Shown: piece by piece, positions 10,387 through 59,819 of the stretch
How positions within the stretch are numbered: position 1 is the first letter of the stretch
How the letters are laid out: every line of letters starts with the position of its first letter
Assembly: GCF_032999765.1 (NCBI RefSeq)
Contig: NZ_CP136051.1
Coordinates: 5,598,501 to 5,662,500, forward strand
DNA from: Imperialibacter roseus
GTDB lineage: Bacteria > Bacteroidota > Bacteroidia > Cytophagales > Cyclobacteriaceae
DNA: 64,000 bases
Reading direction: 5' to 3'
Notes under the pieces: model-generated
What the model saw: the letters and a program-made list of their open reading frames with translations, nothing else
Told to the model about the DNA's origin: nothing
Database searches by the model: none
Position numbers and translations under genes: made by a program

Positions 10387-10899
10387 CTAAAAGAGAGACG
10401 GCAGGTTAGGTTTGAATTTCCCACTTAAAAATTTATCAGCCACCAGCAACACAGCAATGGCCGTGGCAATCACCACGAGCTGAATCAGCGCTGGATTGTC
10501 GATTGCTTCGAGCATAGGAGCAAAGTCGAACGCTGGGAGTTCAGGAAGGTAATCGGGCTTTACAGATGGGCTCTGTACCGTTTCCTGAAATAAAGGCAGT
10601 ATGCTCAGTACAGCAGCGAACATAGCTGCAAAAATCCCCAGTGCCATCCAAAGAAGGCGATTGCTTTTACTGGCCCTGGCCTTTCCGGCCTCTATCCTAT
10701 TCATGATGCCATCGGTGAAAAATACATCATCGAGCTCCATCATGTTATGCCTGGCCATGAGCTTGTCGGCATTTTGCATGCTTATCAACTGCTTTTGCAA
10801 AACGTTGTCCTTGCTTATTTGCTTTTCCAGCTCTTTCCTCTCAGCGGCTGGAAGTTTATTTTCTAAATAGTCGAATAATCTTTTTTCCATGTTTTCCAT
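10387..10899 (-). CDS. Probable anti-sigma factor, membrane-anchored
   Basis: Likely holds the sigma factor encoded directly upstream in an inactive state at the membrane. The 170-residue protein begins MENMEKRLFDYLENKLPAAERKELEKQI, typical of the helical cytoplasmic anti-sigma domain of Bacteroidota. It has two hydrophobic segments: one near residues 84-105 (LLWMALGIFAAMFAAVLSILPL) and one near 140-158 (LIQLVVIATAIAVLLVADKFL). The gap to the sigma gene is 12 bases, so the pair forms an operon. No zinc-binding HxxxCxxC motif is visible. The assignment rests on context and on the N-terminal pattern. Confidence 0.8.
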   Translation of the reverse strand: MENMEKRLFDYLENKLPAAERKELEKQISKDNVLQKQLISMQNADKLMARHNMMELDDVFFTDGIMNRIEAGKARASKSNRLLWMALGIFAAMFAAVLSILPLFQETVQSPSVKPDYLPELPAFDFAPMLEAIDNPALIQLVVIATAIAVLLVADKFLSGKFKPNLPSLF

Positions 10900-10911: not shown

Positions 10912-11487
10912 TTAGGTCAATGAGGTTATTTCCTCCTGCAAGCACTTGCCCAACCATTCGGCCAGCTTTTTTCGTGCCCTGAAAATTTTTACTTTAACAT
11001 TGTTGGGGGCAAACCCAGTAACTTTTTCTATCTCCTCCAGCGTCAGTTCCTGAAAGTAATATAGTGTAATCAAAAACGCATCATCCTCAGGCAGCCGTTC
11101 AATCGCCTTATTGATCCAGGCCCTCCTCTCCTTTTGCGACAACAGTTCACTGGAGTTCATGCCGTCCGCATCCAAAACGCCAGAAGCCTTCTCAATATCT
11201 GTTTCAGGTAGTCTCTTTTTTCTCTTTTTACTTATAGCAGTGTTAAAAACAATTCTATAAAGCCATGTGCTGAATTTAGCGTCTCCTTTGAACGATGAAA
11301 TATTGTTGTAGGCCTTGATAAAAGAGTCCTGTGCCACCTCCTGAGCATCTTCATGTGAGCACACCACCCTGAGGGCAAGCGTGTAAACATAGCTTTTGTG
11401 CCTGTCTACCAAATGGCGAAAGTAGGCAGACTCGCCCTTTTTGATAAAGGTGATTAGCTCCTCTTCTGTATAACTAGTTTCTGACAC
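10912..11487 (-). CDS. ECF-family RNA polymerase sigma factor
   Basis: Directs RNA polymerase to a dedicated stress or envelope regulon. The 191-residue protein has region 2 (FRHLVDRHKSYVYTLALRVVCSHEDAQEVAQDSFIKAYNNISSF, then FSTWLYRIVFNTAISKKRKKR) and region 4 (RLPEDDAFLITLYYFQELTLEEIEKVTGF, then NVKVKIFRARKKL). There is no region 3 or extra domain. It is followed by its probable anti-sigma gene and preceded by a promoter element shared with the divergent gene at 11602, so it is probably autoregulated. The start ATG sits just 2 bases inside the 13-bp mirror element. Confidence 0.94.
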   Translation of the reverse strand: MSETSYTEEELITFIKKGESAYFRHLVDRHKSYVYTLALRVVCSHEDAQEVAQDSFIKAYNNISSFKGDAKFSTWLYRIVFNTAISKKRKKRLPETDIEKASGVLDADGMNSSELLSQKERRAWINKAIERLPEDDAFLITLYYFQELTLEEIEKVTGFAPNNVKVKIFRARKKLAEWLGKCLQEEITSLT

Positions 11488-11488
11488 C

Positions 11489-11522
11489 GCCCCTATGACG
11501 CATCTTTGATTACAGAAGTTAC
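11489..11522 (-). promoter_or_regulatory. ECF-type promoter of the sigma/anti-sigma operon
   Basis: Read on the minus strand: GTAAC (11518-11522), 17 bases, then CGTCATAGGGGC (11489-11500). GTAAC and CGTC match the usual -35 and -10 forms of ECF promoters. The same elements at the same spacing appear facing the other way at 11548-11581. The element ends at the sigma start codon, so the transcript would have almost no leader or the true start lies slightly inside. Confidence 0.65.
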
Positions 11523-11547
11523 CGAAAAAAATAATAAGTTTTCATTT

Positions 11548-11581
11548 GTAACCGCTGCAAAGAGTGGGGCGTCATAGGGGC
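11548..11581 (+). promoter_or_regulatory. ECF-type promoter of the DUF6249-like gene
   Basis: GTAAC (11548-11552), 17 bases, CGTCATAGGGGC (11570-11581), then 20 bases to the ATG at 11602. It is a mirror copy of the promoter of the sigma operon: 13 bases (11489-11501 and 11569-11581) are a perfect inverted repeat while the intervening 17-base spacers differ, as expected of a functional -35/-10 pair. Confidence 0.65.
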
Positions 11582-11601
11582 AAATCAAAACTTAAAATAA
11601 T

Positions 11602-11928
11602 ATGCACGGACCGGAAGTATTAATCCCATTAGCGTTGTTTACCTCCATTGCTATCACCATTATCTTTTGGAGGAAGTTTCTAAACGACGAGCGACTAGCC
11701 GCCATTGAAAAAGGCGCCGACCCCAATATTTTCAGAGGGAAGTCAACCAATAGCATTGCGCTTAAATTTGGGCTGTTGTTTATTGGTGTAGGCTGCGGAA
11801 TTTTATTTGGGGGGCTTATTGAAGGCTTCTTCAGAGACGAAGAGGTAGCCTATTTTTCCATGATTTTTATCTTTGGAGGAGCCGGGCTTTTTATCTCACA
11901 CAAAATGGAGCAGAAGGAGAACCAATAG
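11602..11928 (+). CDS. Small membrane protein, DUF6249-like
   Basis: The function is unknown. The 108-residue protein has three membrane segments (near residues 5-22, 54-72 and 82-98). A cytoplasmic stretch ERLAAIEKGADPNIF between the first two resembles the DUF6249 family. It is divergent from the ECF sigma gene and shares its promoter type, so it is probably part of that regulon. Its last codons and stop form one arm of a hairpin with the end of the convergent hydrolase gene. Confidence 0.8.
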   Translation: MHGPEVLIPLALFTSIAITIIFWRKFLNDERLAAIEKGADPNIFRGKSTNSIALKFGLLFIGVGCGILFGGLIEGFFRDEEVAYFSMIFIFGGAGLFISHKMEQKENQ

Positions 11929-11945
11929 TATCTATTGGTTCCTTT
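11919..11945. terminator. Bidirectional terminator spanning both convergent stop codons
   Basis: A perfect 10-bp inverted repeat (GAACCAATAG 11919-11928 and CTATTGGTTC 11932-11941) has a 3-base loop. On the plus strand it is followed by CTTTTC. Each arm contains the last codons and TAG stop of one of the two convergent genes. Confidence 0.6.
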
Positions 11946-16806: not shown

Positions 16807-19800
16807 CTATTTTTTCTGAATCCTCCATGTCTCAGTGAAGCTTCCAGCTTCATCAGAAATAACCAGAATATACATTCCCGGTGTAAGTCCAGATATATCC
16901 ATTGCTGTTCTTTGAGGCCCTTGGCTATATGGAAGGGCATGTAACATCAGCTCTCTACCGGTCATATCCGTCACCCTCATGTTAAGGCTTTCAACCTTTC
17001 TTCTTACGAAATAGTCGAGATTGATGATGTCATCGCCTGGGTTAGGATACACGTTGAGGTCACGAAGGAATGGAGCTGCAATCCCTTTTACGGATACTTT
17101 GTCAACTACAATTCCTTCGGGGGTCACAAGTGCAGCCACCGAAATCTCGTTGAAATCCGTCTGTGTGCCTAGTGTTAGCAGAATATCAGAACTCTGATCC
17201 ATTGGAACACCCGGGTACTGAATATTGATCAAATATGTATCGTCAGTCAGTGTGCCAAAACTAAAATTCCCTTCTTCATCTGTCACAGTATACGCTACAA
17301 AATCATAGTCGAACTCATTGCCCTTTGCCCTGAATCGCTGGCGGCTCAAGCTTACCCCAGCCCCGGCAACACGCTTTCTGTCAAGAATTCGAGCTTCCTC
17401 ATCCGGAATCGTATTGTCAGGTAAATCCGATTCAAGTGACCCGCCAATCACACCATCACCATTTAGGGGTGGAGGGGTGCCTAACAGAGAAATGGCTAAG
17501 CCAGTAACCGTATTCCTTACTCTTAATGTATCCGCTTGTATCCAGTCTATAGTGCTTGAATAATAGGTTTGCAGAGCGTCGGGGAACAACTCTAAATCCG
17601 GCTTGGCAATAATGATGTAATCACCAAGCACAATTTTTTCAGCTATAAACGCCCCTTCAGGCGACACTTGTGCTGCTGCAATGGAGTCGTAGGGGCCGTC
17701 TTTGATTTTGTATACAATAGCGACGCCGCTGGTCAATGGGCTTTGATCGAAAGCTGAATTTATCGAACCAGAGATCGTTGTTGTGGCCAGCACGTTCTGA
17801 TTTCTGTTTCGAATGCTAAAATCAGGCACTTTCGGGCTCTTCACCTCGACAAAATATGACCCCATTTTATCGTAGTTAACATTGTCGATAATGTGGAATC
17901 GCTTTGTTGCACCTTCAATAGGCTGGTCGTTAAAGTACCACTGATAGCTGTTGGTAAGACCGCTGACCTCAATCGCAACCTTGTGAGCCTGCCCGACAGG
18001 GACACTGTCGTATCGGGTTTCACCAAACCTGCGCTGCGGACTGAATAAGAACTTGTCACCAAGGGCAGCCAGGTTTGTTTCGATGCTGACAAAGCCGAGT
18101 CTATTTCTTGTTAAATCCACAGAGGTTAAGCTGTCTAATCGCTTAAGGTCAGGAAGAAACCTGATCTGGTTGTCTATTGCCGGGTCGAACGAAGGAGCAG
18201 AGTTAGAAAGATTAATTACGGCTAGCTCGCCAATGTCTCTGATCGCAGCTGGCATAGGGCCAACCATGCGATTGTTTGGCAAATTAAGCTGGCTCACTCT
18301 TCCATTCTTGAGCGTTACCCCGGCCCAGGTAGACAACTCTCCCTCGAGCCAATTGGTCTTATTTATCCAGTTAGGGCCGTCGGTTCCCTCGTAGATAGCC
18401 ACCAGGGCTAAACTGTCTCTTTTACGGGAGGAAATCTTCAACACGTACTCATCTGTGTCCAGCACAAGGTCTGGCACCGATGCATTGGCTACCCGGGCAA
18501 AGTAGGTGCCTTCATCGTTCTCTGTCGTACTTGCTATAAAATAGTCTTGTTCTACCGCACCAGCAACCTCCGCATCATCTTTGAACCACTGGTAGCTGTT
18601 CGTGGAACCTCCCATTTCTAACTCAAACAGGAACGGATCACCTGCGCTATGCAACGTATCGAGTGGGAGCCCAAACCTTCCTTGCGGGCTGTACACAAAG
18701 CCATTCACAGCCAGGTTTGGCTCTATGGATCCAAAGCCAACCTTGTTATTTGAGATATTTAGCGTGTCGAGACTGGCCAGCCCAGTGAGGTTTGGCACGA
18801 ACGTGAATTGGTTCTGCTGCAAAATAAGAATCTGCAAGCTGTCCATGGTAGCAACTCCTGCTGGCACCGAACCTTCAAGCTGATTGTCGAAGAGGTAGAG
18901 CGACTTCAAGCTTTTAAGCTTGGCAATCGAGTCGGTCAATGCACCAGTGAGCTTGTTCTGATGCAGATACAGCGCCTCCAGGGCGGCCATATTACCAATT
19001 TCTGCTGGTATCGATCCATCAAACTGATTAGCATCAAGCGCAAGAACCTTCAGTTTATTGAGGTTCCCAATCGTAGGTGGTATTATTCCTTCCATTTGGT
19101 TGCCCATCACTCCAAAAATAGATTCCAGTTTGGTGAGGTTGCCAATTGATGCTGGCAGACCACCTATTAGCTGATTTCGCCCCAAATCAAGTGCGCTGAG
19201 TGACTGAAGCAGACCGATGTCATCCGGAATCTCGCCGCCTATTCGGTTGTCATTCAGGTACAGCATTTCGAGCCTTTTCATCCCCGTAATGCTTGAAGGA
19301 ATGGATCCGGTCAATTGGTTGGCTCCCAGGTTCAATATGCGTAGAGAATCCATGGCAAATAGCTCGGCGGGCAGCTCCCCTATCAAATTGTTTCCGGGAA
19401 GATCGATTTCTACTACTCTGCCATTAGAGGTCTTTATGCCATGCCAGAAACCAACCGGCAAAGCCGACTTCCAATTGGTTTTGTTCGTCCAGGTATCGCC
19501 ACCGGTAGTGTCATACAACTTAACTATAGCCGCCCGATCCGTTGAGTCCATTTGGCTGGCCGTCTTGAAAAAGCGCAAATTAAGCCAATCACCACTTGCG
19601 GTTTTGTACTCCATCCACAATGTATCGGGCGCATAAACAACGGAGGACACAGACGCCAAAATTCCGGTAGGGTCTGTAAGGGAGGATTTTGATGCCACGT
19701 TGCATACTCTGCTAAGTGTGTCAATAACCGCCGCCGAGCCGAAATACTTCTTGTAGTAGCCGCCCGTTAATCCATTAACGATGTAGGTGCCGGGCCCTGT

Positions 19801-22800
19801 TGAATAAATGGCCGCATATGACTCCTCACTTGGTATGATTACCCCGTCTCTTTTTCTTGCACCATACTTCACCAGATAATCTCCATCCGATAAAGGAAGT
19901 GCCCCACAGGACATTGTAACATTCACGGCAGCTGACACGGCCGACTGGCTCACACTTTGTCCGTAGGCAATTACCCTCACATTGTAAACACTGTCAGGCA
20001 AAAGGTTTTTTACGAGCACCTGTGATGTGTCGGAGGGTACCACCTTGACATTTGAAAAAGCAGTTGCGCTTAAAAGCTTGGCCTGCACGAGGTACGAAGA
20101 GGCATCAACTACTGGCGTCCACTCGATATAGGCAGACGTGGTGTTTGCGGCAACAGCCCTGCTGATAGCAGGAGCCAGTGGCGTAGCTGACTGACCGTGC
20201 ATGCTGAAGAATAGATCCCTTTCTTCAACTCCTTCAAATTTTGCTGACCCAATTTGTGCATTAAAATGCACCCCGCCTGCCACAACAGCCGCATTATGAT
20301 AGGCTGAGTAATTCATTGCCCAGGAATATAGCTCTCCCTCACCGGCATCTGCCCATTTAATAGTGCCATTGGTATCAAAAGAAGCAAGGTATAAAAGGCC
20401 TCCATTGACAACCGGGCCTCCAAACTGTGTCGGTTCAATATCCATTGCACCTGCCACAAAAAAGCCTGTGGGGTCTGAGGCTATTTTATACGGGTAGTCA
20501 CTTCCTTGTGGCGTTCCAAAAGTTTTCCCCCATATGCCCGCACCTGTGCTGCCGCTCAACTTCGCAATCAAGTTTAATTGCCCATTTTGGCTTACAGTTA
20601 TCGTGTCTATCGAAATCGAGCTGCTTTTGGGGAAGGCCAACACCAACACATCTCCATTTGCATCAAGGGCAATGTCCCTGGCCTCATCGTCGCCTGTACC
20701 ACCTATAGATCGAAGCCATTGTATGTTTCCTGCGAGGTCGTAGTGAGCTACAAAAAGGTCTGTTCCACCAATGCCCGTGGCAGGAAGTCCGCCAAAAGTC
20801 CAGTCGTTGTTGTATTTCCCCAGAACATATACTCCGGCATTATTGACTTTTACTCTTTGGAACTGGTTAACAAAGGATGTTTGAGCGGAGACCAAAGCCC
20901 CTTGCAAAGCCAGCAGTGGTGCCCCGTTGGCGTCATATTTCAATAGCGCATGACCTCCTCCGTTTAAGGTTGTGGCCCCGTGAGTAAGACTACCGTTGAA
21001 ATAGCCCGCCACAAAAACATTTCCAACCGAATCGACGGCGACTGACAGTCCCCCGGAATCGCCACTTCCGCCGGCCGGCTTGGCCCAAATAACGTCGCCG
21101 TTTGCCGCATTGAGCTTAATGGTTATCATGTCCGTATGGCCCAGAGCAGGGAGCGAATCTGCCCCAATGGCCATCGCACCATTATAATAACCCGTCACAT
21201 ACACACTTCCCTGTCCATCAATCTGAACTCCCTCTAAAATATCGGTTCCAGTGCTGCCGAAACTTTTTGCCCAAACTGGGCTGCCTAGCGAATCAAGTTT
21301 GACAGCCAAAAGGTCATGTGCTCCTTTGCTGGTGACTTGCAGAGCTCCAAATGTGGTAGTGTCTGTGGCATAACCAACCAAATAGGAATAACCCGATGCG
21401 TCGGTGACTATATCAAGAAAGTTTTCCCTGCCCCGTCCCTTAAAAAACTTCGTATTGTCCCAGGAATCGGCCAAAGAATTCGAAAACGTAAATACTTCTT
21501 CAGTATAGGTATAGTCGGAATATACACCTTGCAGAGATCTCAACCGGTAGTAATAGGTCTGTCCCGAGGCTACTGATGCATCGGAATAGGTTAGCACCGA
21601 ATCAGGCAAGGATGCTATCTGGCTATATGGACCAAGGAAATCATCTGCTCTTTCCAAACTATAACTTGCTATACCTGGCACGGCGGCCCACTTCGCACTC
21701 ACCGGCCCATTGAAGGTGGCAAATGCCTGAAAGGCACCAGGCGCTGCCGGAATCGGCAAACCAGAGTCGTTATGAAAAACCAAAAACCCATTTCTATTGC
21801 CCTTGTCTGTTAAGTCAGTGACACCAAAGCGCTGAGTATATTCGAAAGAGCCTGTCATTAGGATCCCCTGATCAACAGGCGAATATTCCAGCCCCCAGGG
21901 GAGACCGAACGAGCCTTCTGATTTATCTACCCACCGCACAGCACCATCGGTTCCGTAGGAAGCTATGAAAAGCTTTCCATTGCCGAGAGTGGAAGCGTCA
22001 AAATTGGTAGCACCGTACCCCATGGTGCCTGCTATGAATGCGCTGTTTCCGTCTGTAGTCAAGCTATATGGTGTGTCGTTTTCATTGGCCGTGCCAGCAC
22101 TTTTACCCCACAGCACCGTTCCATCCGAGCCATTGACCTTAGTAAGGTAAATATCGTATCCCGTTCCGGAATTAGTAACACTTACGGCGTCGACAGTCGC
22201 TGCGCCTCCATCAAAGTCTCCCGCCCAAAAAACATTACCGGCAGCATCAACAACCACCTCGTTGCCGAACTCTTCTCCCGGCCCAGCCATGGTTTTTACC
22301 CATTTGAGAGAGCCGTCGGTCCCATAGTTAATCAGCACCGCATCTCTAAGTGCATTGGGAGTGATGGGCGTGCCCTCAAAAGACCACTGGCCGTCTACTT
22401 CACCGGTAACATAAACATTACTACCGCTAACTGCCACCGAGTTAAAAGTGTTGACAAATCGGGTATTGCCCACAAGTGTACCAAAACGTGCAAAAATTTT
22501 ACTGCCGTCGGGGCCCACTTTAAACAGAGCCGCTCCTCCTCCTCCTCCGCTAAAAGTAGTGGCGCCAAATGTGAAGTCGCCGTTATAGTAACCTGCCAGG
22601 TAGGCGTTCCCGGCGGCATCAGTAGCAATTTTGTTTACGGTAGCATCTCCGGGAGCGCCCAGGGTTGTGATCCACGTAACCGTTCCATCCGGCGAAAGGC
22701 GGGCAACGTAGCCATCCTGTGCGCCACCAACCGGCGCCGGTGCCGACTGGCTGTCCACCGTAAATGCCCCACGATGGTAACCCCCCACATAAATACTCCC

Positions 22801-25800
22801 TCCAGGGCCTATGGCCACGTCAATGGCAAGATCCACGGCAGGGCTTCCAAATGTTTTTATCCAATCAATGGTTTTGGTACTATTCACTTTAATGACAATG
22901 GCATCGTTGGCGCCGTTGGAGTAAATACTGTCTCCATTCAAAAACAAAGTACCTGCAAAATTTCCCGCCAGATAGGTATTGCCCAGGCTGTCCACCGCCA
23001 TATCAAGAAGGGTTAGCCGACCCGGGGTTGTGAACTCCTGTTGGATATTCCAGGTGTCGGGCAGGCCGGTGGTGAAAGTGGCTGTAACAACGGACGGCGA
23101 ATATGCAGATACGGTAAGTCCGTTTTCATGCTTGAGCCGATAATAATATACAGTGTTGGCAAACAGCCCAACATCTGAATAACTAGATATCGTGTCACTA
23201 AGTATACCAACTGTCAGAAAAGGGCCTGCATCACTGGTAGCACGTTCCAAATAGAGAGAGCCCCCATTGGCAAATTGGTAAGGTGTCCATTTCAGTTCAA
23301 TGCTATTTTCCGACTTGGTACCGGCCAATAGCCCCTTTGGTACAGTGCTATTTTCGGTCACGGTCAAAACTTGATTAATCCCCGGATTTAGAATTACGTC
23401 GGTATTGCCTGAAGGCCAGTCCACAGTGACAGAGGTAATTGCTGTTTGTGCTCCGAGACCAAATTTGGTGATCATCGAGTTTGATACAGCAAATCCAGAT
23501 CCAGATTTCACCGTACTGATACGAGACCCTGCCCCAGAAACTAGTGTTATTTTCGCTCCGATTCCTTGTCGGTTGGATGCCACGCCATTCAGCTTTACCT
23601 TCGTCCAGTTATTTGCATTAGTAACATTTGTATACGCCCTTGGTATGTCTTCAATATGCACGAATGCATCGTCATTTGTGCTTGAAAAATTCACAAGATC
23701 AGTAAAACCATCATTGTTGAAGTCGGAAACAGAAAGGCTACCAAATGTATATGCAGTGTAAAAGCTTTGTTGCAATGGCGTGACCAGGGTAAAATTACCA
23801 AGGCCGTCATTCAGATATACCTGTTGTTCATTGCTTGACTGTATCACCATTAGATCAAGGTCGCCATCATTGTCAATGTCTTCAAGGGCGGAAGTTCGCC
23901 CAATAATTTCTGTTCCGGTTCTCGTCAGGTCGTCTGAAGATGCGAAGTTCCCGGCACCATCATTGATAAAAAAAGTAGTTTGGGATCCTGGATTCTGGCT
24001 TAACTGCACTAAATCAACAAATCCATCATTGTTGATGTCGCCCCATGAATGACCTCTGGTGCTGGTTATTGCTTCTGTTACTAGTGGGTTTGTCGTATTT
24101 TGTGTGAAAGTTCCGTCTCCATTGTTCCGGAAATAATATCTGCCAGCTGTTTCCGAAAGAAACAAATCAAGAAAACCGTCGCTATCAATATCGATCCAGG
24201 AAATTGTTCCCAAAGATCCTAATAGCAAATTGAATGCACCCGGCACCTCCGAAAAGGTTAAATCCCCATTGTTTTTAAAAAGTGTCACAGGACTTGACAC
24301 ATTAGAGCTACCAAACACTGCAAGGTCAATAAAACCATCGTTGTCGTAGTCTCCAAAGGCCCCACTTTCAATGTTGTCAAGATCGGTGACTACAGGCAGG
24401 GGCACCGACGTGAATGTATTGTCAGCATTGTTTACATATATAACCGAAGTGGCTGGCACCGGAGCCCCTATCCTGTAGCCTAGGTCAGGTACAAACAGGT
24501 CAGGGTATCCATCATTGTCGATATCGCCCCAGGTGGCGCTTCTCACATCTGCCAAATCCGTCGTTATAGCGCCCGCCGACATGGAGGTGAACGTGCCGTC
24601 TCCATTGTTCTGGTATAGTTTGTTTACAGACCCCGGGCCGCCGATGTCAAGAGTTCCTATAAATAAGTCCTCATCCCCATCCTGATCAAAATCCGCCCAC
24701 GCCTGGCCGTAAACAACTCCTGATACGGTTTCACCAAAAATGGAATTGGTGTTATCAATCTGAAACAAAGATTCATTGGCCAACATCGCCTCTCTGGGTT
24801 GAGATACCAAAGTCAATAAAGTCAAAGTGGGGTGGTTAGCCAGCAAAGTGTACGTACCGGTGTCAAGCACTGTGAAGGAGGGGATGTTAAGAGCAGTGGC
24901 TACTTGACCACCAACGTCCACAGCATTTTTTTGCCATTGATAAGTTACGCCAGTGCCTGCAACGGCAGGAAAAGAGAGTGTTAGCGGCTCAGTGGTTCTC
25001 AACAATAACTCTGTCGGGTTAAGTGCGCCAAATGCCTTTTGTGGCGCATAAGTGAAACTTGCTATCGAAGTATGAGGCTCAAGTTCAAGGAATTGAAAAT
25101 TGTTGTCGCTAACATCCAAAGTAGCCAGTGATACTATACCGGACAAATCAGGTAAGTTCGTGAGTGAATTGCCTTGCAGATAGAGGGCGGTGAGTGAAGT
25201 AAGGTTAACCAATGACGCCGGCACATCTCCTGAAAACTGGTTATTATTCAGCCATAAAGTGCCCAAATTCACCAAGTTCCCTATTTCAGTTGGGATCGTT
25301 CCCGAAAACTGGTTGGGAGCCAGATCTAAATAGGTCAAATTGGTTAAGTTACCAATCGACGTTGGCAGTGGCCCTGACAACTGGTTATTCCAAAGCTGGA
25401 AATCGACCAAAGCTGTGAGGTTGCCAATTTCTGTAGGTAGCGCACCCGTCAGTTGGTTACCTCCGAGGTTTAATGAGGCCAATGAAGTAAGGTTGCCTAT
25501 TTCGACAGGAATGTTGCCATTTATTGAGTTAGAACTAAGGTCAAGGTTTGAAAGGTTTGCAAGGGTTCCAATTGAAAAGGGAAGAGTTCCTATCAAATTA
25601 TTTGAAGGCAAGGAGATAGAGGTTACTCTGTTGAAACCCGTGACTCCGTCAAAGGCCGTGGTGACACCTTGCCATGTCCCTATGCTCGCCGATGTTTCCC
25701 AATTGGTAGCCGATGTCCAGGTTGCCCCACCCAGCGTGGCATATAGCTCTCTTATCACCAGTGAGTCTGGCTCATAGGTTGCCTGAGCCTTGACATGCGA

Positions 25801-25890
25801 CGGTTTGGAAATCAGCAAAAAGAAAAAAACTACAGTTGCTACTGCCAGAAAGGCATACTTCGTCTTGGGAGTGTTTGGTTTGGTTGGCAT
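16807..25890 (-). CDS. Giant secreted LRR / FG-GAP-UnbV / SBBP protein with T9SS sorting domain
   Basis: A 3027-residue extracellular or surface protein; binding or adhesion is plausible, but no enzyme motif is seen. Rough order: signal peptide 1-36; leucine-rich repeats 45-290; Ig-like 320-375; seven FG-GAP/VCBS repeats 395-750 with calcium-loop signatures (DQDGDEDLF, DNDGYPDLF, DNDGDLDLM); ASPIC/UnbV 763-847; fibronectin III 857-940; SBBP-type propeller repeats 950-1370; fibronectin III 1390-1467; second SBBP set 1473-1897; fibronectin III 1907-1997; LRR 2110-2383; Ig-like; LRR 2490-2600; Ig-like. A beta module with DRKRVAGAGVSLSRQRFRAK follows near 2835, then the T9SS tail (LNVYPNPGDDIINLDYF to the lysine-rich end). 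The frame extends 45 residues further up to 26025, but the ATG at 25890 begins the signal peptide. Confidence 0.92.
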   Translation of the reverse strand: MPTKPNTPKTKYAFLAVATVVFFFLLISKPSHVKAQATYEPDSLVIRELYATLGGATWTSATNWETSASIGTWQGVTTAFDGVTGFNRVTSISLPSNNLIGTLPFSIGTLANLSNLDLSSNSINGNIPVEIGNLTSLASLNLGGNQLTGALPTEIGNLTALVDFQLWNNQLSGPLPTSIGNLTNLTYLDLAPNQFSGTIPTEIGNLVNLGTLWLNNNQFSGDVPASLVNLTSLTALYLQGNSLTNLPDLSGIVSLATLDVSDNNFQFLELEPHTSIASFTYAPQKAFGALNPTELLLRTTEPLTLSFPAVAGTGVTYQWQKNAVDVGGQVATALNIPSFTVLDTGTYTLLANHPTLTLLTLVSQPREAMLANESLFQIDNTNSIFGETVSGVVYGQAWADFDQDGDEDLFIGTLDIGGPGSVNKLYQNNGDGTFTSMSAGAITTDLADVRSATWGDIDNDGYPDLFVPDLGYRIGAPVPATSVIYVNNADNTFTSVPLPVVTDLDNIESGAFGDYDNDGFIDLAVFGSSNVSSPVTLFKNNGDLTFSEVPGAFNLLLGSLGTISWIDIDSDGFLDLFLSETAGRYYFRNNGDGTFTQNTTNPLVTEAITSTRGHSWGDINNDGFVDLVQLSQNPGSQTTFFINDGAGNFASSDDLTRTGTEIIGRTSALEDIDNDGDLDLMVIQSSNEQQVYLNDGLGNFTLVTPLQQSFYTAYTFGSLSVSDFNNDGFTDLVNFSSTNDDAFVHIEDIPRAYTNVTNANNWTKVKLNGVASNRQGIGAKITLVSGAGSRISTVKSGSGFAVSNSMITKFGLGAQTAITSVTVDWPSGNTDVILNPGINQVLTVTENSTVPKGLLAGTKSENSIELKWTPYQFANGGSLYLERATSDAGPFLTVGILSDTISSYSDVGLFANTVYYYRLKHENGLTVSAYSPSVVTATFTTGLPDTWNIQQEFTTPGRLTLLDMAVDSLGNTYLAGNFAGTLFLNGDSIYSNGANDAIVIKVNSTKTIDWIKTFGSPAVDLAIDVAIGPGGSIYVGGYHRGAFTVDSQSAPAPVGGAQDGYVARLSPDGTVTWITTLGAPGDATVNKIATDAAGNAYLAGYYNGDFTFGATTFSGGGGGAALFKVGPDGSKIFARFGTLVGNTRFVNTFNSVAVSGSNVYVTGEVDGQWSFEGTPITPNALRDAVLINYGTDGSLKWVKTMAGPGEEFGNEVVVDAAGNVFWAGDFDGGAATVDAVSVTNSGTGYDIYLTKVNGSDGTVLWGKSAGTANENDTPYSLTTDGNSAFIAGTMGYGATNFDASTLGNGKLFIASYGTDGAVRWVDKSEGSFGLPWGLEYSPVDQGILMTGSFEYTQRFGVTDLTDKGNRNGFLVFHNDSGLPIPAAPGAFQAFATFNGPVSAKWAAVPGIASYSLERADDFLGPYSQIASLPDSVLTYSDASVASGQTYYYRLRSLQGVYSDYTYTEEVFTFSNSLADSWDNTKFFKGRGRENFLDIVTDASGYSYLVGYATDTTTFGALQVTSKGAHDLLAVKLDSLGSPVWAKSFGSTGTDILEGVQIDGQGSVYVTGYYNGAMAIGADSLPALGHTDMITIKLNAANGDVIWAKPAGGSGDSGGLSVAVDSVGNVFVAGYFNGSLTHGATTLNGGGHALLKYDANGAPLLALQGALVSAQTSFVNQFQRVKVNNAGVYVLGKYNNDWTFGGLPATGIGGTDLFVAHYDLAGNIQWLRSIGGTGDDEARDIALDANGDVLVLAFPKSSSISIDTITVSQNGQLNLIAKLSGSTGAGIWGKTFGTPQGSDYPYKIASDPTGFFVAGAMDIEPTQFGGPVVNGGLLYLASFDTNGTIKWADAGEGELYSWAMNYSAYHNAAVVAGGVHFNAQIGSAKFEGVEERDLFFSMHGQSATPLAPAISRAVAANTTSAYIEWTPVVDASSYLVQAKLLSATAFSNVKVVPSDTSQVLVKNLLPDSVYNVRVIAYGQSVSQSAVSAAVNVTMSCGALPLSDGDYLVKYGARKRDGVIIPSEESYAAIYSTGPGTYIVNGLTGGYYKKYFGSAAVIDTLSRVCNVASKSSLTDPTGILASVSSVVYAPDTLWMEYKTASGDWLNLRFFKTASQMDSTDRAAIVKLYDTTGGDTWTNKTNWKSALPVGFWHGIKTSNGRVVEIDLPGNNLIGELPAELFAMDSLRILNLGANQLTGSIPSSITGMKRLEMLYLNDNRIGGEIPDDIGLLQSLSALDLGRNQLIGGLPASIGNLTKLESIFGVMGNQMEGIIPPTIGNLNKLKVLALDANQFDGSIPAEIGNMAALEALYLHQNKLTGALTDSIAKLKSLKSLYLFDNQLEGSVPAGVATMDSLQILILQQNQFTFVPNLTGLASLDTLNISNNKVGFGSIEPNLAVNGFVYSPQGRFGLPLDTLHSAGDPFLFELEMGGSTNSYQWFKDDAEVAGAVEQDYFIASTTENDEGTYFARVANASVPDLVLDTDEYVLKISSRKRDSLALVAIYEGTDGPNWINKTNWLEGELSTWAGVTLKNGRVSQLNLPNNRMVGPMPAAIRDIGELAVINLSNSAPSFDPAIDNQIRFLPDLKRLDSLTSVDLTRNRLGFVSIETNLAALGDKFLFSPQRRFGETRYDSVPVGQAHKVAIEVSGLTNSYQWYFNDQPIEGATKRFHIIDNVNYDKMGSYFVEVKSPKVPDFSIRNRNQNVLATTTISGSINSAFDQSPLTSGVAIVYKIKDGPYDSIAAAQVSPEGAFIAEKIVLGDYIIIAKPDLELFPDALQTYYSSTIDWIQADTLRVRNTVTGLAISLLGTPPPLNGDGVIGGSLESDLPDNTIPDEEARILDRKRVAGAGVSLSRQRFRAKGNEFDYDFVAYTVTDEEGNFSFGTLTDDTYLINIQYPGVPMDQSSDILLTLGTQTDFNEISVAALVTPEGIVVDKVSVKGIAAPFLRDLNVYPNPGDDIINLDYFVRRKVESLNMRVTDMTGRELMLHALPYSQGPQRTAMDISGLTPGMYILVISDEAGSFTETWRIQKK

Positions 25891-26129
25891 AATACTCAGG
25901 CTAGCGCTAATACAATTTAAGATATTGTAACAATAAAAACTATTTACCACAAAGCCATCGAAAGTTTGACTGATGGGGCAAATTGTGTACACAGTCGAAC
26001 AGCTAATTGACTCATAAGCGTACAATTAAACAATACTCCTAATTGAGTATTTTTATAAAGCGCTGTTAACCAGAAAGATATGCAAACAGGTACGTAACTT
26101 GTTGCTGGTTTTATATAAATTTTCTCTTT
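25891..26129. other. Divergent intergenic region with a 7-bp hairpin
   Basis: This 239-base spacer separates the giant gene from the divergent permease gene and must hold both promoters. No TTG-N19-21-TAnnTTTG match was found on either strand. At 26032-26051 lies a perfect 7-bp stem (AATACTC and GAGTATT, 6-base loop) followed by TTT on the plus strand. No plus-strand gene precedes it, so it is not an obvious terminator. Confidence 0.45.
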
Positions 26130-54611: not shown

Positions 54612-57600
54612 CTATCTGCTTATTATTATTCTTAGTGAAATAACACTCCCCCCATTTCCCGTTGTATCATAAAATCTCAAAATATACATGCCTGCTTTCA
54701 CGTCGTCAACGTCAAGAAGAACCTGTCTATCAGAGCCCGGCTCAAGGTTAGCGCTTCTTATTGTCTGACCCGTCAAATCTATCAAGTCGGCTACTATTTC
54801 GCCCCTCACTAATTTCTCATAACGGATTGTCAAGAATTTATTGGCCGGGTTAGGGTACACCGTCAGCCCCTTGAAGTAATCCAAATAGATGCCCGTCTCT
54901 TCCACCTTGGTCACCACAATGCTGGTTGGCGTAGCCAACGCATTGATACGGATGCTGTTCTGCTCAACACCGTTGCCACCGCCAAGCTGAAACTCGATAA
55001 AAGAAGTGGGATCCATCGGAATACCCGGATACTGAATATTAACACGATAGTCTCCATCAGGCAGGTTGTTCATCTCAAACTGACCCGTTTCATCTGTTTG
55101 AACATAGGCGATCAGCTCGTAGCCTTCATCGTTATCCTTCGCCCTAAACCTTGAGCGACTCAAACTTACTCCCGCACCTTTTACCCGTTTTCTATCAAAC
55201 ACCCGTGCCCCATCGTCGCCAAAATCAGATTCAAATAATCCACTGAAGGTATTGTCTCCATCTACAGGGGTTAACACTGGCAGAACACCCTCCATGGTAA
55301 GCACAAGTTCACCAACATTGCCACGGAGCTGAAGTAGATCGGCAAAGGCCCAATCGATGGTGCTTTTGTAAAAGCTTGGTAAAAAGACCTCTATATCCTG
55401 CTCAGCATAAAGCAGATAATCGCCCAGCACCACATCTTCGATGACAAATGTCCCGTTTGGCCCGCTTCTGAAGTGACCTGTGGTATCGTAGGCGCCCGCC
55501 TTAACTATAAGTAGTGCCCCAAAGGCGTCATTGACAGGGAGCTCGCTTTTGTCTGTTATTTTACCCGAAAGATTGGCTGTGGCTAAAACTTGCTGTACGC
55601 TACTTTTGATAGTCAGGCCAGGTACCCTGGCATTCGTAACTTCCAGTTGGTAATCGCCCATCGTAGCGAAATCTATCCCAGCAATAGTATACTCTGCCGC
55701 ATTGCCTTCCTCCACCTCCACGCCATTCCTGAACCACTGATGACTATTGGCACTGCCACCAATCGATACGCTGAGTAAGTAATCAGCCCCCACTGGTATC
55801 AGTTCTTCCAACATCACTCCGGCCAATTTTTGTGGACTATAGTTCAGGCTGGGAATGTTGATATTTGGCTCAAGATCGTCAAACTGTAGCCTGTTGTTCG
55901 AGACATTGAGCATCGTGAGTTGAATGATATTTGTCAAAACTGGCAGGCTGGTGATTTCATTTCCCGATAAATTGATACTTGTTAGCTTCCTCATATCTCC
56001 CAGAAACTTCGGCAAGTCACCAGAAAGGTTGTTTGCGGGCAAGTCAATCCCGGTTACCCTGTCGCTGGCAACGGTTATACCAAACCAAGATGATAGATCG
56101 GCCGTGTTCCATCCCGAATTATTGATCCAGGCTTCGCCACTGGTTAAGCTATACAACTCCTCCAACAATAACCTATCACGCTCAAGGGAGCTCACCCTGA
56201 GTGCTACCGGCTTAGTTGTGAGCGTCAAACCCGGAACAATACTACTGGTAACCTCTACATAATAATTGCCCTCGTCCGCAAATGTTGGGAAATCGATTGT
56301 ATGATTGAACCCGGCAGCACCTTCTAGTGATAGGTCATTTTTAAACCACTGATAATTGTTTGCACTTCCTCCGACCTGGCGATCCAAGATCAGGCTTTCG
56401 CCCCTCTCCTGAAGGGTGTCCGTAAAAGTAAGGAGCGCAGACTGCGGCGAAAACGTGAAAGAAGCAAGTCCCATATTGAATTCCAGTGAGGCAAAATCAA
56501 GAACATTATTGGCAACGTTGGTGGTAGAAAGTGCCATTGAAGTCAGGTTGGGTAATCTGGAAATCTGATTATTGCTGATATCGAGGGTTTTCAATGAGTC
56601 AAGCACAAGAATATCATCGGGCAGACCCCCTCTAAGGCCGTTTGCTACCAAATCAATGCCCGTTATCCTTGAAAGAGACGCCGTCACTCCAAACCAGTTC
56701 TCAACTTTCTGGCCAGGTGCAAGCCAATTAGTATTATTGACCCAATTAGCTCCGTCAAGAGAATTATACAGGCTCACAAGGGCCAGGGAGTCAGATGCGA
56801 TGACACCATCCTTGATTTTCCGGATTTCAAGCACATTACTATTTTCTGCAAGATTCCCTGCTAAGTCCGTCACACCGACCGACCGAAGACTTGCCTGCAA
56901 CAATGCAATGTCTGCGGTGACCAACAAAATAAGCTGATAATTTGAGGCGTTGGTTCGGACAATTGTATCCACGACGCCATTGAGCACCTCAAAATCCTGG
57001 CTTGTTAGATTGGTGACTGCTTCAGAAAATTGGACGTCAACAGGTATGACGCCTGTTATTGACGGCTGAGGCAGGCTGTAAGTCAACGTGGCTGTAGGGG
57101 GAACAATGTCTTTGAGCCCTTCGGTACTAATTGTATCGCCCCGATTGCCAAGACTATCGGTTAAAACAACTTTAACACTGAAAATACCGTCGGCCAAGCT
57201 GGCCAAATCTATTTCGGTAAGGCGCTCTGGGTCAGAGGAAATAGTGTTACTGCCACTTATTGTCAGGGCACTGCTGTCCGCCTCACTATTAATAAAATAC
57301 TCAAACGTTGCTCCTATCTCTCCATTTAGTATGTCGAAGTCTAATAACTGTGAATCAAGATTCAGGGGCCCACTTTGCACAATCACGGAGTCAGCAGTGG
57401 CCGGGATATTGTCGATGCTATACACCTCCCCATTGAAAGGGATGTTGATAACGCTTGGCAAAACTCCAGCGTTGTCGGTGAAATCTAGGCCCAGGGTGCC
57501 CCCGGCTGCGCCAAATTCTGCTGCAACGACCCAGTTGACCCCATCTGCATCTGATACAGCTATTAAGATTGGACTAGCTACGCCGGATTCGACAAGCGAG

Positions 57601-59819
57601 AAATTTGCTTCGGAAACCCCGGTCACCGGCTGGTCGAAGGCGACAGTCCAGCTAACTGAAGAAAAGTTATTTGGGTTGGCATCGTTTCTTGTAATAGAAA
57701 GCACCGATGCTGGCGATTTAATGGTGATTGGCTCACTTATGAGGGTCAATCCCATAACTACAGTGTTGGTTACCCTCAGTTTATATACACCGAGGTTCAG
57801 TGGGCCAAAGTTTGTTATTTCGTACGTATCAGTTGTGGCGCCAACAATATCCTCCCCGTCCTTCTCCCACTGATATTCGTTGTTAATACCACCGACTGCA
57901 AATGCCAATGTTTGACTATCTCCAGCATTTAGTCCAATTGTTTGGCTCAGGCCGAACGGCTTCTGTCCTGCATTGACGGTGATGATGCCTACGTTTGGCT
58001 CTAAATCTTCAAAGGTAAATCGATTGTTGCTCACATCAAATGAGGCGAGCAGGCCGAGTGAGCTCATGTCGGGCAAGTGGGTTAGTTCGTTGTTGCTAAT
58101 GTTAAAACTGGTCAGCGCCTGCAAATTCACTATCTGTTCGGGGACACTGTCTGCCAAAAAGTTACCTGACAGATCAATACTGGCTGCTTCAGATAAGTAG
58201 GCCAATTCATAGGGGAATTTGCCCTCCAAATTATTGCTGCTCAAGCTCACCGCTTGCACCCTGCCTCCCAGTGTGTCTATTCCGTACCAGGTATTGAGAT
58301 CCACATTGAACCAATTGGTGCTATTTACCCAACTTGCTCCATCCGTTTTTCTGTAAATAGAATCAAGGGCCACACTGTCTATCATAAGGGAAAAACCTAG
58401 CAGTTCGAAGGCAGTCGTATTTGTTAAGCTCCACGCTCCATTTCCATCTTTTACCCTCGTTAAGAGATTATGGCTGCCACTACTAAACGAATTGACCGCA
58501 ATAGGTATACTGACATTTTCATCAATGGGGTTTTGGGGAGAAGCCACAACCACCTCGGTGGCCTGACCCGCACCGGGGTCTGTGTCTATAGCATATTCAA
58601 CAGTAGTTATCAGCCTTGTTCCATCCCTAAAAAAGGGGCTTGATTCAATATGACTCCACTGCCCCTTATCATCCAGAGCCCTGATATGAAGCGTATGCAT
58701 CCCGAGAGAAAGTGACTCAATGGGTATAGGAATAGCCGCATCAACCTGAGTTCCGGGAGAAATGACCAGTGCCAAACCATTTCCATATCCCGGATCCACA
58801 TCAAAAAAGTATTCCAACGAGGTAATGGTATTTTGACCCTCAACACTCGAGGTGGTGATAAAAAATGGTCGATGTTCGGTGGCGCTCCACTGACCGGAGG
58901 CATCACGTACCCTGAAATAGACCGTGTGAAAGCCTGTACCTAACGATGACGTTGGAATCTGCTCCAGCAGGTCTACATCTGTGGATGGTGTTACCGCTAC
59001 GGCCACACCGTTACCCTGACCCGGATCAACATCTATAAAATACTCAACGGCATCAATGTCATTTCGGATCTCGCTCGTTGACTGACTGATAAAAAACGGC
59101 CGATGCTCCGTAGCACTCCACTGACCGGAGGCATCACGCACTCTGAAATAGACCGAGTGAAAGCCAGCACTTAACGATGAAGTGGGAATTTGCTCCAGCA
59201 GGTCTACATCTGTAGATGGTGTTACCGCTACGGCCACACCGTTGCCCTGACCCGGATCAACATCTATAAAATACTCAACGGCATCAATGTCATTTCGGAT
59301 CTCGCTCGTTGACTGACTGATAAAAAACGGCCGATGCTCTGCTGCACTCCACTGGCCGGATGCGTCCTGCACCCTGAAATAGATGTTATGAAAACCGGAG
59401 CTAAGGAACGCCGTGGGGATCAGCTCAAAAACATCGACATCAGCAGACGGCGTCACCGCCACCGGCGTCCCATTACCCTGACCAGGATCAGAGTCAAGGT
59501 AATACTCCATACTTACTATGTTGTTGCGTGTTTCGGTTGTGGATTGACTGATAAAAAAAGCTCTTCTTTCAAAATGACTCCAAACGTTGTTTTCATCCAT
59601 CGTGCGAACGTACAATGTATGCACGCCTGGCGTAAGCGAGCCAGTGGGCACAGCAAAGTTAAAATCTACCTGAGCGGCAGGTGTGAAAAAAACGCTGGTA
59701 CCACCGCCAAAACCTGGGTCGGCGTCTACATAGTATTCCATGGCCGTTATTTGCGGGGCCTGTGCCAGCCCAAATTGCGCACAGCATATCAACCCCAAAA
59801 AGGAAAGAAGCCTTTTCAT
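54612..59819 (-). CDS. 1735-residue surface protein with 77-residue repeats, LRR and T9SS domain
   Basis: Secreted surface protein. A 20-residue signal peptide (MKRLLSFLGLICCAQFGLAQ) is followed by six tandem repeats of about 77 residues (21-475) with the pattern EYFxDxDPGxGNG...IPTSSLxxGFHxVYFRVRDASGQWSATEHRPFF. LRR block about 480-610, Ig-like about 620-680, a bacterial-Ig segment (about 700-1000), a second LRR/Ig set 1010-1190, a third LRR/Ig set 1195-1385, then the SdrD-like module with DRKRVKGAGVSLSRSRFRAK near 1545 and the T9SS tail (LTVYPNPANKFLTIRYE) near 1655-1735. It follows the beta-helix gene by 20 bases. Confidence 0.92.
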   Translation of the reverse strand: MKRLLSFLGLICCAQFGLAQAPQITAMEYYVDADPGFGGGTSVFFTPAAQVDFNFAVPTGSLTPGVHTLYVRTMDENNVWSHFERRAFFISQSTTETRNNIVSMEYYLDSDPGQGNGTPVAVTPSADVDVFELIPTAFLSSGFHNIYFRVQDASGQWSAAEHRPFFISQSTSEIRNDIDAVEYFIDVDPGQGNGVAVAVTPSTDVDLLEQIPTSSLSAGFHSVYFRVRDASGQWSATEHRPFFISQSTSEIRNDIDAVEYFIDVDPGQGNGVAVAVTPSTDVDLLEQIPTSSLGTGFHTVYFRVRDASGQWSATEHRPFFITTSSVEGQNTITSLEYFFDVDPGYGNGLALVISPGTQVDAAIPIPIESLSLGMHTLHIRALDDKGQWSHIESSPFFRDGTRLITTVEYAIDTDPGAGQATEVVVASPQNPIDENVSIPIAVNSFSSGSHNLLTRVKDGNGAWSLTNTTAFELLGFSLMIDSVALDSIYRKTDGASWVNSTNWFNVDLNTWYGIDTLGGRVQAVSLSSNNLEGKFPYELAYLSEAASIDLSGNFLADSVPEQIVNLQALTSFNISNNELTHLPDMSSLGLLASFDVSNNRFTFEDLEPNVGIITVNAGQKPFGLSQTIGLNAGDSQTLAFAVGGINNEYQWEKDGEDIVGATTDTYEITNFGPLNLGVYKLRVTNTVVMGLTLISEPITIKSPASVLSITRNDANPNNFSSVSWTVAFDQPVTGVSEANFSLVESGVASPILIAVSDADGVNWVVAAEFGAAGGTLGLDFTDNAGVLPSVINIPFNGEVYSIDNIPATADSVIVQSGPLNLDSQLLDFDILNGEIGATFEYFINSEADSSALTISGSNTISSDPERLTEIDLASLADGIFSVKVVLTDSLGNRGDTISTEGLKDIVPPTATLTYSLPQPSITGVIPVDVQFSEAVTNLTSQDFEVLNGVVDTIVRTNASNYQLILLVTADIALLQASLRSVGVTDLAGNLAENSNVLEIRKIKDGVIASDSLALVSLYNSLDGANWVNNTNWLAPGQKVENWFGVTASLSRITGIDLVANGLRGGLPDDILVLDSLKTLDISNNQISRLPNLTSMALSTTNVANNVLDFASLEFNMGLASFTFSPQSALLTFTDTLQERGESLILDRQVGGSANNYQWFKNDLSLEGAAGFNHTIDFPTFADEGNYYVEVTSSIVPGLTLTTKPVALRVSSLERDRLLLEELYSLTSGEAWINNSGWNTADLSSWFGITVASDRVTGIDLPANNLSGDLPKFLGDMRKLTSINLSGNEITSLPVLTNIIQLTMLNVSNNRLQFDDLEPNINIPSLNYSPQKLAGVMLEELIPVGADYLLSVSIGGSANSHQWFRNGVEVEEGNAAEYTIAGIDFATMGDYQLEVTNARVPGLTIKSSVQQVLATANLSGKITDKSELPVNDAFGALLIVKAGAYDTTGHFRSGPNGTFVIEDVVLGDYLLYAEQDIEVFLPSFYKSTIDWAFADLLQLRGNVGELVLTMEGVLPVLTPVDGDNTFSGLFESDFGDDGARVFDRKRVKGAGVSLSRSRFRAKDNDEGYELIAYVQTDETGQFEMNNLPDGDYRVNIQYPGIPMDPTSFIEFQLGGGNGVEQNSIRINALATPTSIVVTKVEETGIYLDYFKGLTVYPNPANKFLTIRYEKLVRGEIVADLIDLTGQTIRSANLEPGSDRQVLLDVDDVKAGMYILRFYDTTGNGGSVISLRIIISR
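58395..59759 (-). repeat. Six tandem 231-bp repeats in the 5' part of the 1735-residue gene
   Basis: The units code for residues 21-97, 98-174, 175-251, 252-328, 329-402 and about 403-475. Units 3 (59067-59297) and 4 (58836-59066) are nearly identical in DNA, with the same 231-base period; the outer units are more diverged. This indicates a recent duplication of an inner unit. Confidence 0.88.

Follow-up and report, generated by a model that had tools for sequence, protein, structure and literature searches.

A pair of mirrored promoters facing outward from one intergenic region of Imperialibacter roseus very probably belongs to a self-activating ECF module, in which a sigma factor would drive its own sigma/anti-sigma operon and, in the opposite direction, a gene for a small membrane protein of the DUF6249 family. 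The module lies in the window, by which we mean the whole stretch of 64,000 nucleotides analyzed here. The proposal draws on comparison across loci, namely of the putative promoters, their conservation and orientation, the link to DUF6249 and the covariation with the recognition helix of the sigma factor. According to the proposed mechanism, a membrane anti-sigma would hold the sigma factor at the membrane and then release it, and the freed sigma-RNA polymerase would transcribe outward from both GTAAC-N16-GCGTCATA promoters. The sigma-side promoter would amplify the sigma/anti-sigma operon and the other one would yield DUF6249, which may be an inner-membrane effector or a feedback partner of an envelope response. 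Since only about 30 residues separate the two transmembrane (TM) helices of the anti-sigma-like protein and little of DUF6249 lies outside the membrane, one may speculate that sensing or feedback takes place within the membrane itself.

The sigma gene (10912 to 11487, minus strand) encodes 191 amino acids with the Pfam domains Sigma70_r2 (PF04542) and Sigma70_r4_2 (PF08281) above cut-off and no further sigma region; TIGR02937 was also matched above cut-off. Having regions 2 and 4 and no region 3, the protein is an ECF (group IV) sigma factor, and by sequence it matches the solved structures of sigma-E and SigW. The gene that follows (10387 to 10899, minus strand) encodes a membrane protein of 170 amino acids, with an N-terminal part of about 85 amino acids and two predicted TM helices, that we label with moderate confidence as a putative anti-sigma. 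It matched no Pfam family, and its match to NF052375 was far below the cut-off (E 8e-4, 19.5 bits vs 100). All of its 19 homologues have at least two predicted TM helices, and at E <= 0.01 the anti-sigma family NF052375 was matched in eight of them, NF010501 in six and zf-HC2 in three. On the other side of the intergenic region, the DUF6249 gene (11602 to 11928, plus strand) encodes 108 amino acids that match PF19762 with 60.8 bits (gathering score 33). Three TM helices are predicted in the protein, and the same number in 22 of 28 aligned homologues; a conserved loop, NxER..xIxxG, follows the first. Its predicted model, built from two sequences, has a mean pLDDT of 60.7, too weak a basis for a fold search, and hints at no more than three long helices. 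Compared by sequence with solved structures, the protein gave weak matches, of which a designed repeat protein was the best (E 8e-4). A terminator-like hairpin, recognized by consensus match only, is located at the end of the gene (11919 to 11941, plus strand); four sites of this consensus were found vs 3.1 in shuffles.

The sigma side of the intergenic region reads GTAAC-TTCTGTAATCAAAGAT-GCGTCATAGGGGC (11522 to 11489, minus strand) and the DUF6249 side reads GTAAC-CGCTGCAAAGAGTGGG-GCGTCATAGGGGC (11548 to 11581, plus strand). The original prediction, made from this sequence, had described GTAAC-N17-CGTCATAGGGGC facing outward on both strands at this very place, and so we found it. It had also described a mirroring of 13 bases and GTAAC with spacers that differ: the mirrored parts are indeed the 13 nucleotides of GCGTCATAGGGGC and the five of GTAAC, and the spacers do differ, but the distance between GTAAC and the 13-mer is 16 nucleotides. 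Allowing up to three mismatches, the 34-nucleotide pattern has two sites in the 64 kb vs 0.04 expected from shuffles, which confirms that the mirrored motif is real and above chance expectation. At the same threshold, these are the only sites in the whole 6.75-Mb genome, each with no mismatch; the reversed control of the pattern also gave two matches in the genome.

The motif is best accounted for as a back-to-back pair of putative ECF promoters, GTAAC-N16-GCGTCATA, facing outward, an assignment supported by the comparison with other loci described below. On the sigma side (minus strand), the candidate -35 element GTAAC (11518 to 11522) is kept in relatives, the -10 element GCGTCATA occupies 11494 to 11501 and the GGGGC discriminator 11489 to 11493. 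On the DUF6249 side (plus strand), the corresponding elements are at 11548 to 11552, 11569 to 11576 and 11577 to 11581. The two -35 elements are separated by an A/T-rich stretch of 25 bp (11523 to 11547). An extended -10 element of 12 bases had been proposed originally, but the 13 mirrored bases parse better as an ECF -10 (GCGTCATA) followed by a five-nucleotide discriminator (GGGGC). Over 129 sites collected from other loci (68 on the DUF6249 side and 61 on the sigma side), the five bases beyond the -10 vary; the GGGGC tail is common to the congener and some relatives and is not general, and the 12-base element was rejected. Because the pattern used to collect these sites prescribes G[TC][AG]AC and RTC and gives preference to the -10 tail, only the variability beyond that tail counts as a finding. 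The congener (G001) carries the locus at the matching place. In the two copies of GTAAC and GCGTCATAGGGGC taken together, 36 of 36 element bases agree between the two genomes, compared with 20 of 32 spacer positions (Fisher p = 3e-5). The prediction was said beforehand to fail if close relatives had lost the motif but kept both genes; in the congener the motif is fully retained.

DUF6249 and the sigma gene are associated well beyond this genus. In a sample based on the sigma factor, made of the window and 35 loci from the best sigma matches (L093 and L094 were already known to carry DUF6249), DUF6249 was present in 30 of 36 loci and an anti-sigma homologue in 33. In a sample based on DUF6249, 60 matches were found in 51 of 194 genomes of the order, 44 of them with an ECF gene within 1.1 kb; for the matches above cut-off, an ECF gene adjoined 41 of 49. 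Across the phylum, DUF6249 was matched in 124 of 395 Bacteroidota genomes, in 113 of them above the curated cut-off. The best-scoring 30 of these loci, which are not a random draw, included 26 new ones, and an ECF gene was present in 26 of 26 fetched stretches (about 3.3 kb each); the DUF6249 gene of two phylum loci (L226 and L227) was not found again by our own DUF profile. Among the titles and abstract openings listed in a literature search, which took in neither subscription articles nor the re-classification of ECF sigmas, no DUF6249-ECF link was seen, and the term DUF6249 retrieved one plant paper.

In 90 of the 114 loci that we examined for promoters, DUF6249 and the sigma gene lie no more than 1.5 kb apart; the pair is divergent in 71 of them and runs in one direction in 19. 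A general motif, G[TC][AG]ACY-N16/17-RTC-HWA, was present in the divergent loci on the DUF6249 side in 50 of 71, on the sigma side in 49 and on both sides in 38, so that 33 loci are without it on one or both sides. In the one-direction loci it preceded DUF6249 in 12 of 19 and the sigma gene in one. Shuffled sequences gave an average of at most 0.09 and never more than one match. With the stricter GTAACY-N15-GCRTCHWA, the counts were 18 (DUF6249 side) and 22 (sigma side) of 71 in divergent loci and three and none of 19 in one-direction loci. Antisense matches to the general motif in the same intervals numbered 13 and 28 of 71 in divergent loci, where they are no clean control because the promoter of the neighbour occupies that strand, and none of 19 in one-direction loci. 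The general motif was loosened after part of these loci had been viewed, and near-copies such as L135/L136 and L147/L148 inflate the counts. In the phylum loci, which were fresh, it was found in 10 of 18 (DUF6249 side) and eight of 18 (sigma side) divergent loci (L251 being doubtful) and on the DUF6249 side of one of six one-direction loci.

Eight DUF6249 genes above cut-off had no ECF gene in the fetched stretch. The putative promoter is kept in six of them (L130, L133, L139, L146, L152 and L153); L134 is without it and L159 lies at a contig end. Close sigma relatives were found in five of those eight genomes, and the motif precedes the sigma gene in L252, L255 and L256, with no match in L253 and L254. 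Conversely, six of the 36 sigma-sampled loci are without DUF6249. In genomes G003 and G025 a promoter-pattern search located DUF6249 elsewhere (L289 and L310, recognized from their translations). In L073, L074 and L087 the divergent place is occupied by DUF2752 and TM2 proteins instead of DUF6249; DUF2752 has a Pfam match in two of the three and was recognized by eye in L074, TM2 is above cut-off in two, and the mirrored promoters of all three read GTAACA. At the sixth locus, L092, neither a remote DUF6249 nor DUF2752/TM2 was seen.

The motif had also been put forward as a search pattern for the whole regulon, a use that our genome scans did not bear out, as nothing convincing appeared past the two sites. 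In the genome of I. roseus, GTAAC-N15-19-CGTCATA gave three matches vs seven for the reversed control, GTAAC-N16-GCGTC eight vs 12, GTAACY-N16-17-GTCWWA seven vs 28 and GTAACY-N15-GCRTCHWA three vs one, the third match being inside a gene. The strict pattern gave 18 off-locus matches vs 23 for the reversed control in a set of 20 genomes (with 26 more at DUF6249/sigma loci) and 14 vs 26 in a set of 17 genomes (with 18 more). Of 15 sites examined among those 18, ten were inside genes and five just upstream of a gene, these being two MacB/FtsX permeases, one DUF4097 gene, one PadR regulator and one gene without a Pfam match. Together with a relaxed site before a permease-like protein (judged by its look) in both Imperialibacter genomes, these five sites speak for an account in which promoters and self-control are as proposed and DUF6249 is a single member of a larger envelope regulon, alongside MacB/FtsX-type permeases and DUF4097 proteins. 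However, the off-locus matches are fewer than those of the reversed control in both sets, and the 13 of 14 sites examined in the second set (nine inside genes, two before DUF6249 and two elsewhere) included no additional permease. We regard this broader account as possible though doubtful, and the wider regulon as a lead, not a result. The relaxed site is GTAACC-N17-GTCAAA (L210, G000:C1:1481704; L222, G001:C46:120678), in a region that is 91% identical overall between the two genomes. In both, an inverted repeat (TTTTGCATCT/AGATGCAAAA) lies on either side of it, and the site may be an ECF promoter that a repressor controls.

In the self-activating module the two transcripts would begin in different ways. 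Six bases lie between GTCATA and the GTG start codon of the sigma gene (11485 to 11487, minus strand). In RpoE-type promoters the last A of the -10 is position -7; placed likewise, the last A of GTCATA would set +1 at the G of the GTG, and the transcript is predicted to start there or within a few nucleotides. With a -10 within about ten nucleotides of its start codon, the window sigma gene has the sequence arrangement of a leaderless mRNA. The DUF6249 mRNA would instead carry a 5' leader of about 19 nucleotides (11583 to 11601, plus strand); the leaders of this family are 50% A (n = 64). Across loci, the first in-frame start past the -10 on the sigma side is at 2-12 nucleotides in 55 of 61 sites and at 5-9 nucleotides in 45, where random placement gives 23% and 10%. 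The same rule on the DUF6249 side gives three and one of 68. We predict, on these distances, that the sigma mRNA is leaderless across this group. A misplaced start codon, with a normal leader on the sigma mRNA, finds some support in the mechanical starts (the first after a stop), which put only 43 of 61 sigma-side sites at 2-12 nucleotides (one of 68 on the DUF6249 side), so that the figure of 55 needs the first in-frame start past the -10. Yet the next in-frame start in the window sigma is 25 codons further in, within the conserved domain, and neither the DUF6249 side nor random placement comes near the sigma-side counts; a misplaced start is thus improbable. The prediction outlines a leaderless sigma-gene group in a phylum in which few mRNAs have been mapped as leaderless: the share reported for Flavobacterium psychrophilum is 5.5% (PMC9723704), and leaders longer than ten nucleotides are reported on 87% of the predicted transcripts of F. 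johnsoniae (PMC6847099).

The two promoters of a locus resemble one another, with a mean of 0.87 mismatches between them in 52 divergent loci. Permuting the loci raised this mean to 2.07, and in 5000 permutations it never came down to 0.87, although a permutation of loci leaves relatedness in. The -35 class varies with residue 166 of the sigma factor (numbered as in the window protein), which clearly outscores every other column (0.57 vs 0.31). Among 77 sigmas, Val or Ile at this position goes with GTAAC (61 of 61), Met with GTGAC (6 of 6) and Asn, Ser or Ala with GCAAC (10 of 10). On the sigma tree the GTGAC label requires at least two changes (gains or losses) and GCAAC at least three, and Met is found at 166 in both separate GTGAC groups. 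In the alignment with E. coli sigma-E, residue 166 falls on the Ser of VRSRIFRAR (the IFRAR helix), which we take to be S172, in the helix that reads the -35. Columns 82, 83 and 86, which belong to region 2, are among the best for the -10, at lower scores (0.12 to 0.21). One locus, L083, mixes the -35 classes GCAAC and GTAAC. The covariation of the -35 with residue 166 is the strongest argument for the neighbouring sigma as the one that would read these promoters, it makes this residue a candidate for specificity, and the promoter class should be useful for predicting ECF-promoter pairs.

A second DUF6249-ECF-anti-sigma module exists in the same genome, outside the window, with its genes in one direction (L093, G000:C1:2338177-2339070); its promoter class is GTGAC..GTATCTAA and Met is at the recognition-helix position. 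ECF promoters can overlap in specificity and the genome holds 38 matches to the window sigma at E <= 0.001, so that real ECF promoters might be read by another ECF sigma with the neighbour not regulating itself. But the -35 variant goes with the residue at position 166 of the sigma encoded beside it, and the second module of the same cell pairs a different promoter class with a different residue, and we hold control by another sigma to be distinctly improbable. A putative cognate promoter does precede the sigma operon, as in autoregulated ECF modules. The original prediction that one sigma controls both its own operon and DUF6249 from two mirrored promoters is thus favoured by conservation, gene order, covariation, residue 166 and the unlinked DUF6249 genes. 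That the 13-base inverted repeat might be the operator of a bridging repressor or activator, with the ECF resemblance secondary, would suit arms that form a perfect inverted repeat within one short intergenic region, but we reject it as highly improbable because the motif tracks gene order, preceding DUF6249 far more often than the sigma gene in the one-direction loci, standing in single copies before unlinked DUF6249 genes and keeping 18 nucleotides from GTRAC to RTC in 63 of 68 DUF6249-side and 54 of 61 sigma-side sites (17 or 18 being allowed), while the called gene gaps of divergent loci span -142 to 1045 nucleotides. The same tracking supports ECF promoters that would move with their genes when gene order differs.

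Autoregulated ECF sigma/anti-sigma operons include rpoE-rseABC of E. coli and sigW-rsiW of B. subtilis. The module described here is like them in its two-domain ECF sigma, in the membrane anti-sigma-like gene next to it and in the GTC-type -10 of its own putative promoter. It differs from them in the divergent second promoter on DUF6249, in the predicted leaderless sigma mRNA and in an anti-sigma-like protein whose two TM helices are about 30 residues apart. In Bacteroidota, an ECF sigma with a membrane anti-sigma is also found in the Bacteroidales Dma/Das and EcfO-Reo systems, whose anti-sigma spans the inner and outer membranes and whose reported targets are NigD and other proteins (PMC13088901, PMC13114119). 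The first of these reports also relates that removal of the das2 anti-sigma raises the sigma gene itself (PMC13088901). The SM6 ECF promoters of F. psychrophilum likewise have a CGT box in the -10 region, and one ECF/anti-sigma pair is among their genes, as here; the targets named for them, however, are genes of type IX secretion, among others (PMC9723704). Class I anti-sigmas are reported to adjoin only 6% of Bacteroidetes ECFs (PMC7406223), and sigma/anti-sigma pairing is therefore apparently not the rule in the phylum. A self-controlled ECF module is known, then, and what is new is the DUF6249 partnership, the putative promoter pair that follows its genes and the predicted leaderless sigma. 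For DUF6249, a family of unknown function, the module points to a specific regulator and to a part in an ECF response that can be tested.

A more tentative reading, which we put forward with more doubt than confidence, joins these features into a widespread and nearly closed ECF circuit of Bacteroidota. If it were true, the constant output of the circuit would be one small inner-membrane protein, DUF6249, or DUF2752 and TM2 in some lineages. With a leaderless sigma and a leadered cargo, translation would be initiated in two different ways on the two halves of the mirrored promoter pair. Within the membrane, the cargo would act back on the anti-sigma with its two TM helices, and residue 166 of the sigma would set the -35 and keep parallel modules in one cell apart.

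Some other features were observed in the congener and in the window. Contigs C3, C11, C15, C21, C23, C39 and C61 of G001, and C26 as a variant, share a nearly identical stretch starting with GTAACAAAACATCA, which was absent among the matches of the I. roseus genome and is perhaps a mobile element. In the window, a unit of 231 bp is repeated in tandem between 58856 and 59490 (2.3 to 2.7 copies), within an ORF of 1735 amino acids (54612 to 59819, minus strand). Another ORF, of 3072 amino acids (16807 to 26025, minus strand), shows leucine-rich-type repeats by eye, and its C-terminal end presumably resembles a type IX secretion signal.
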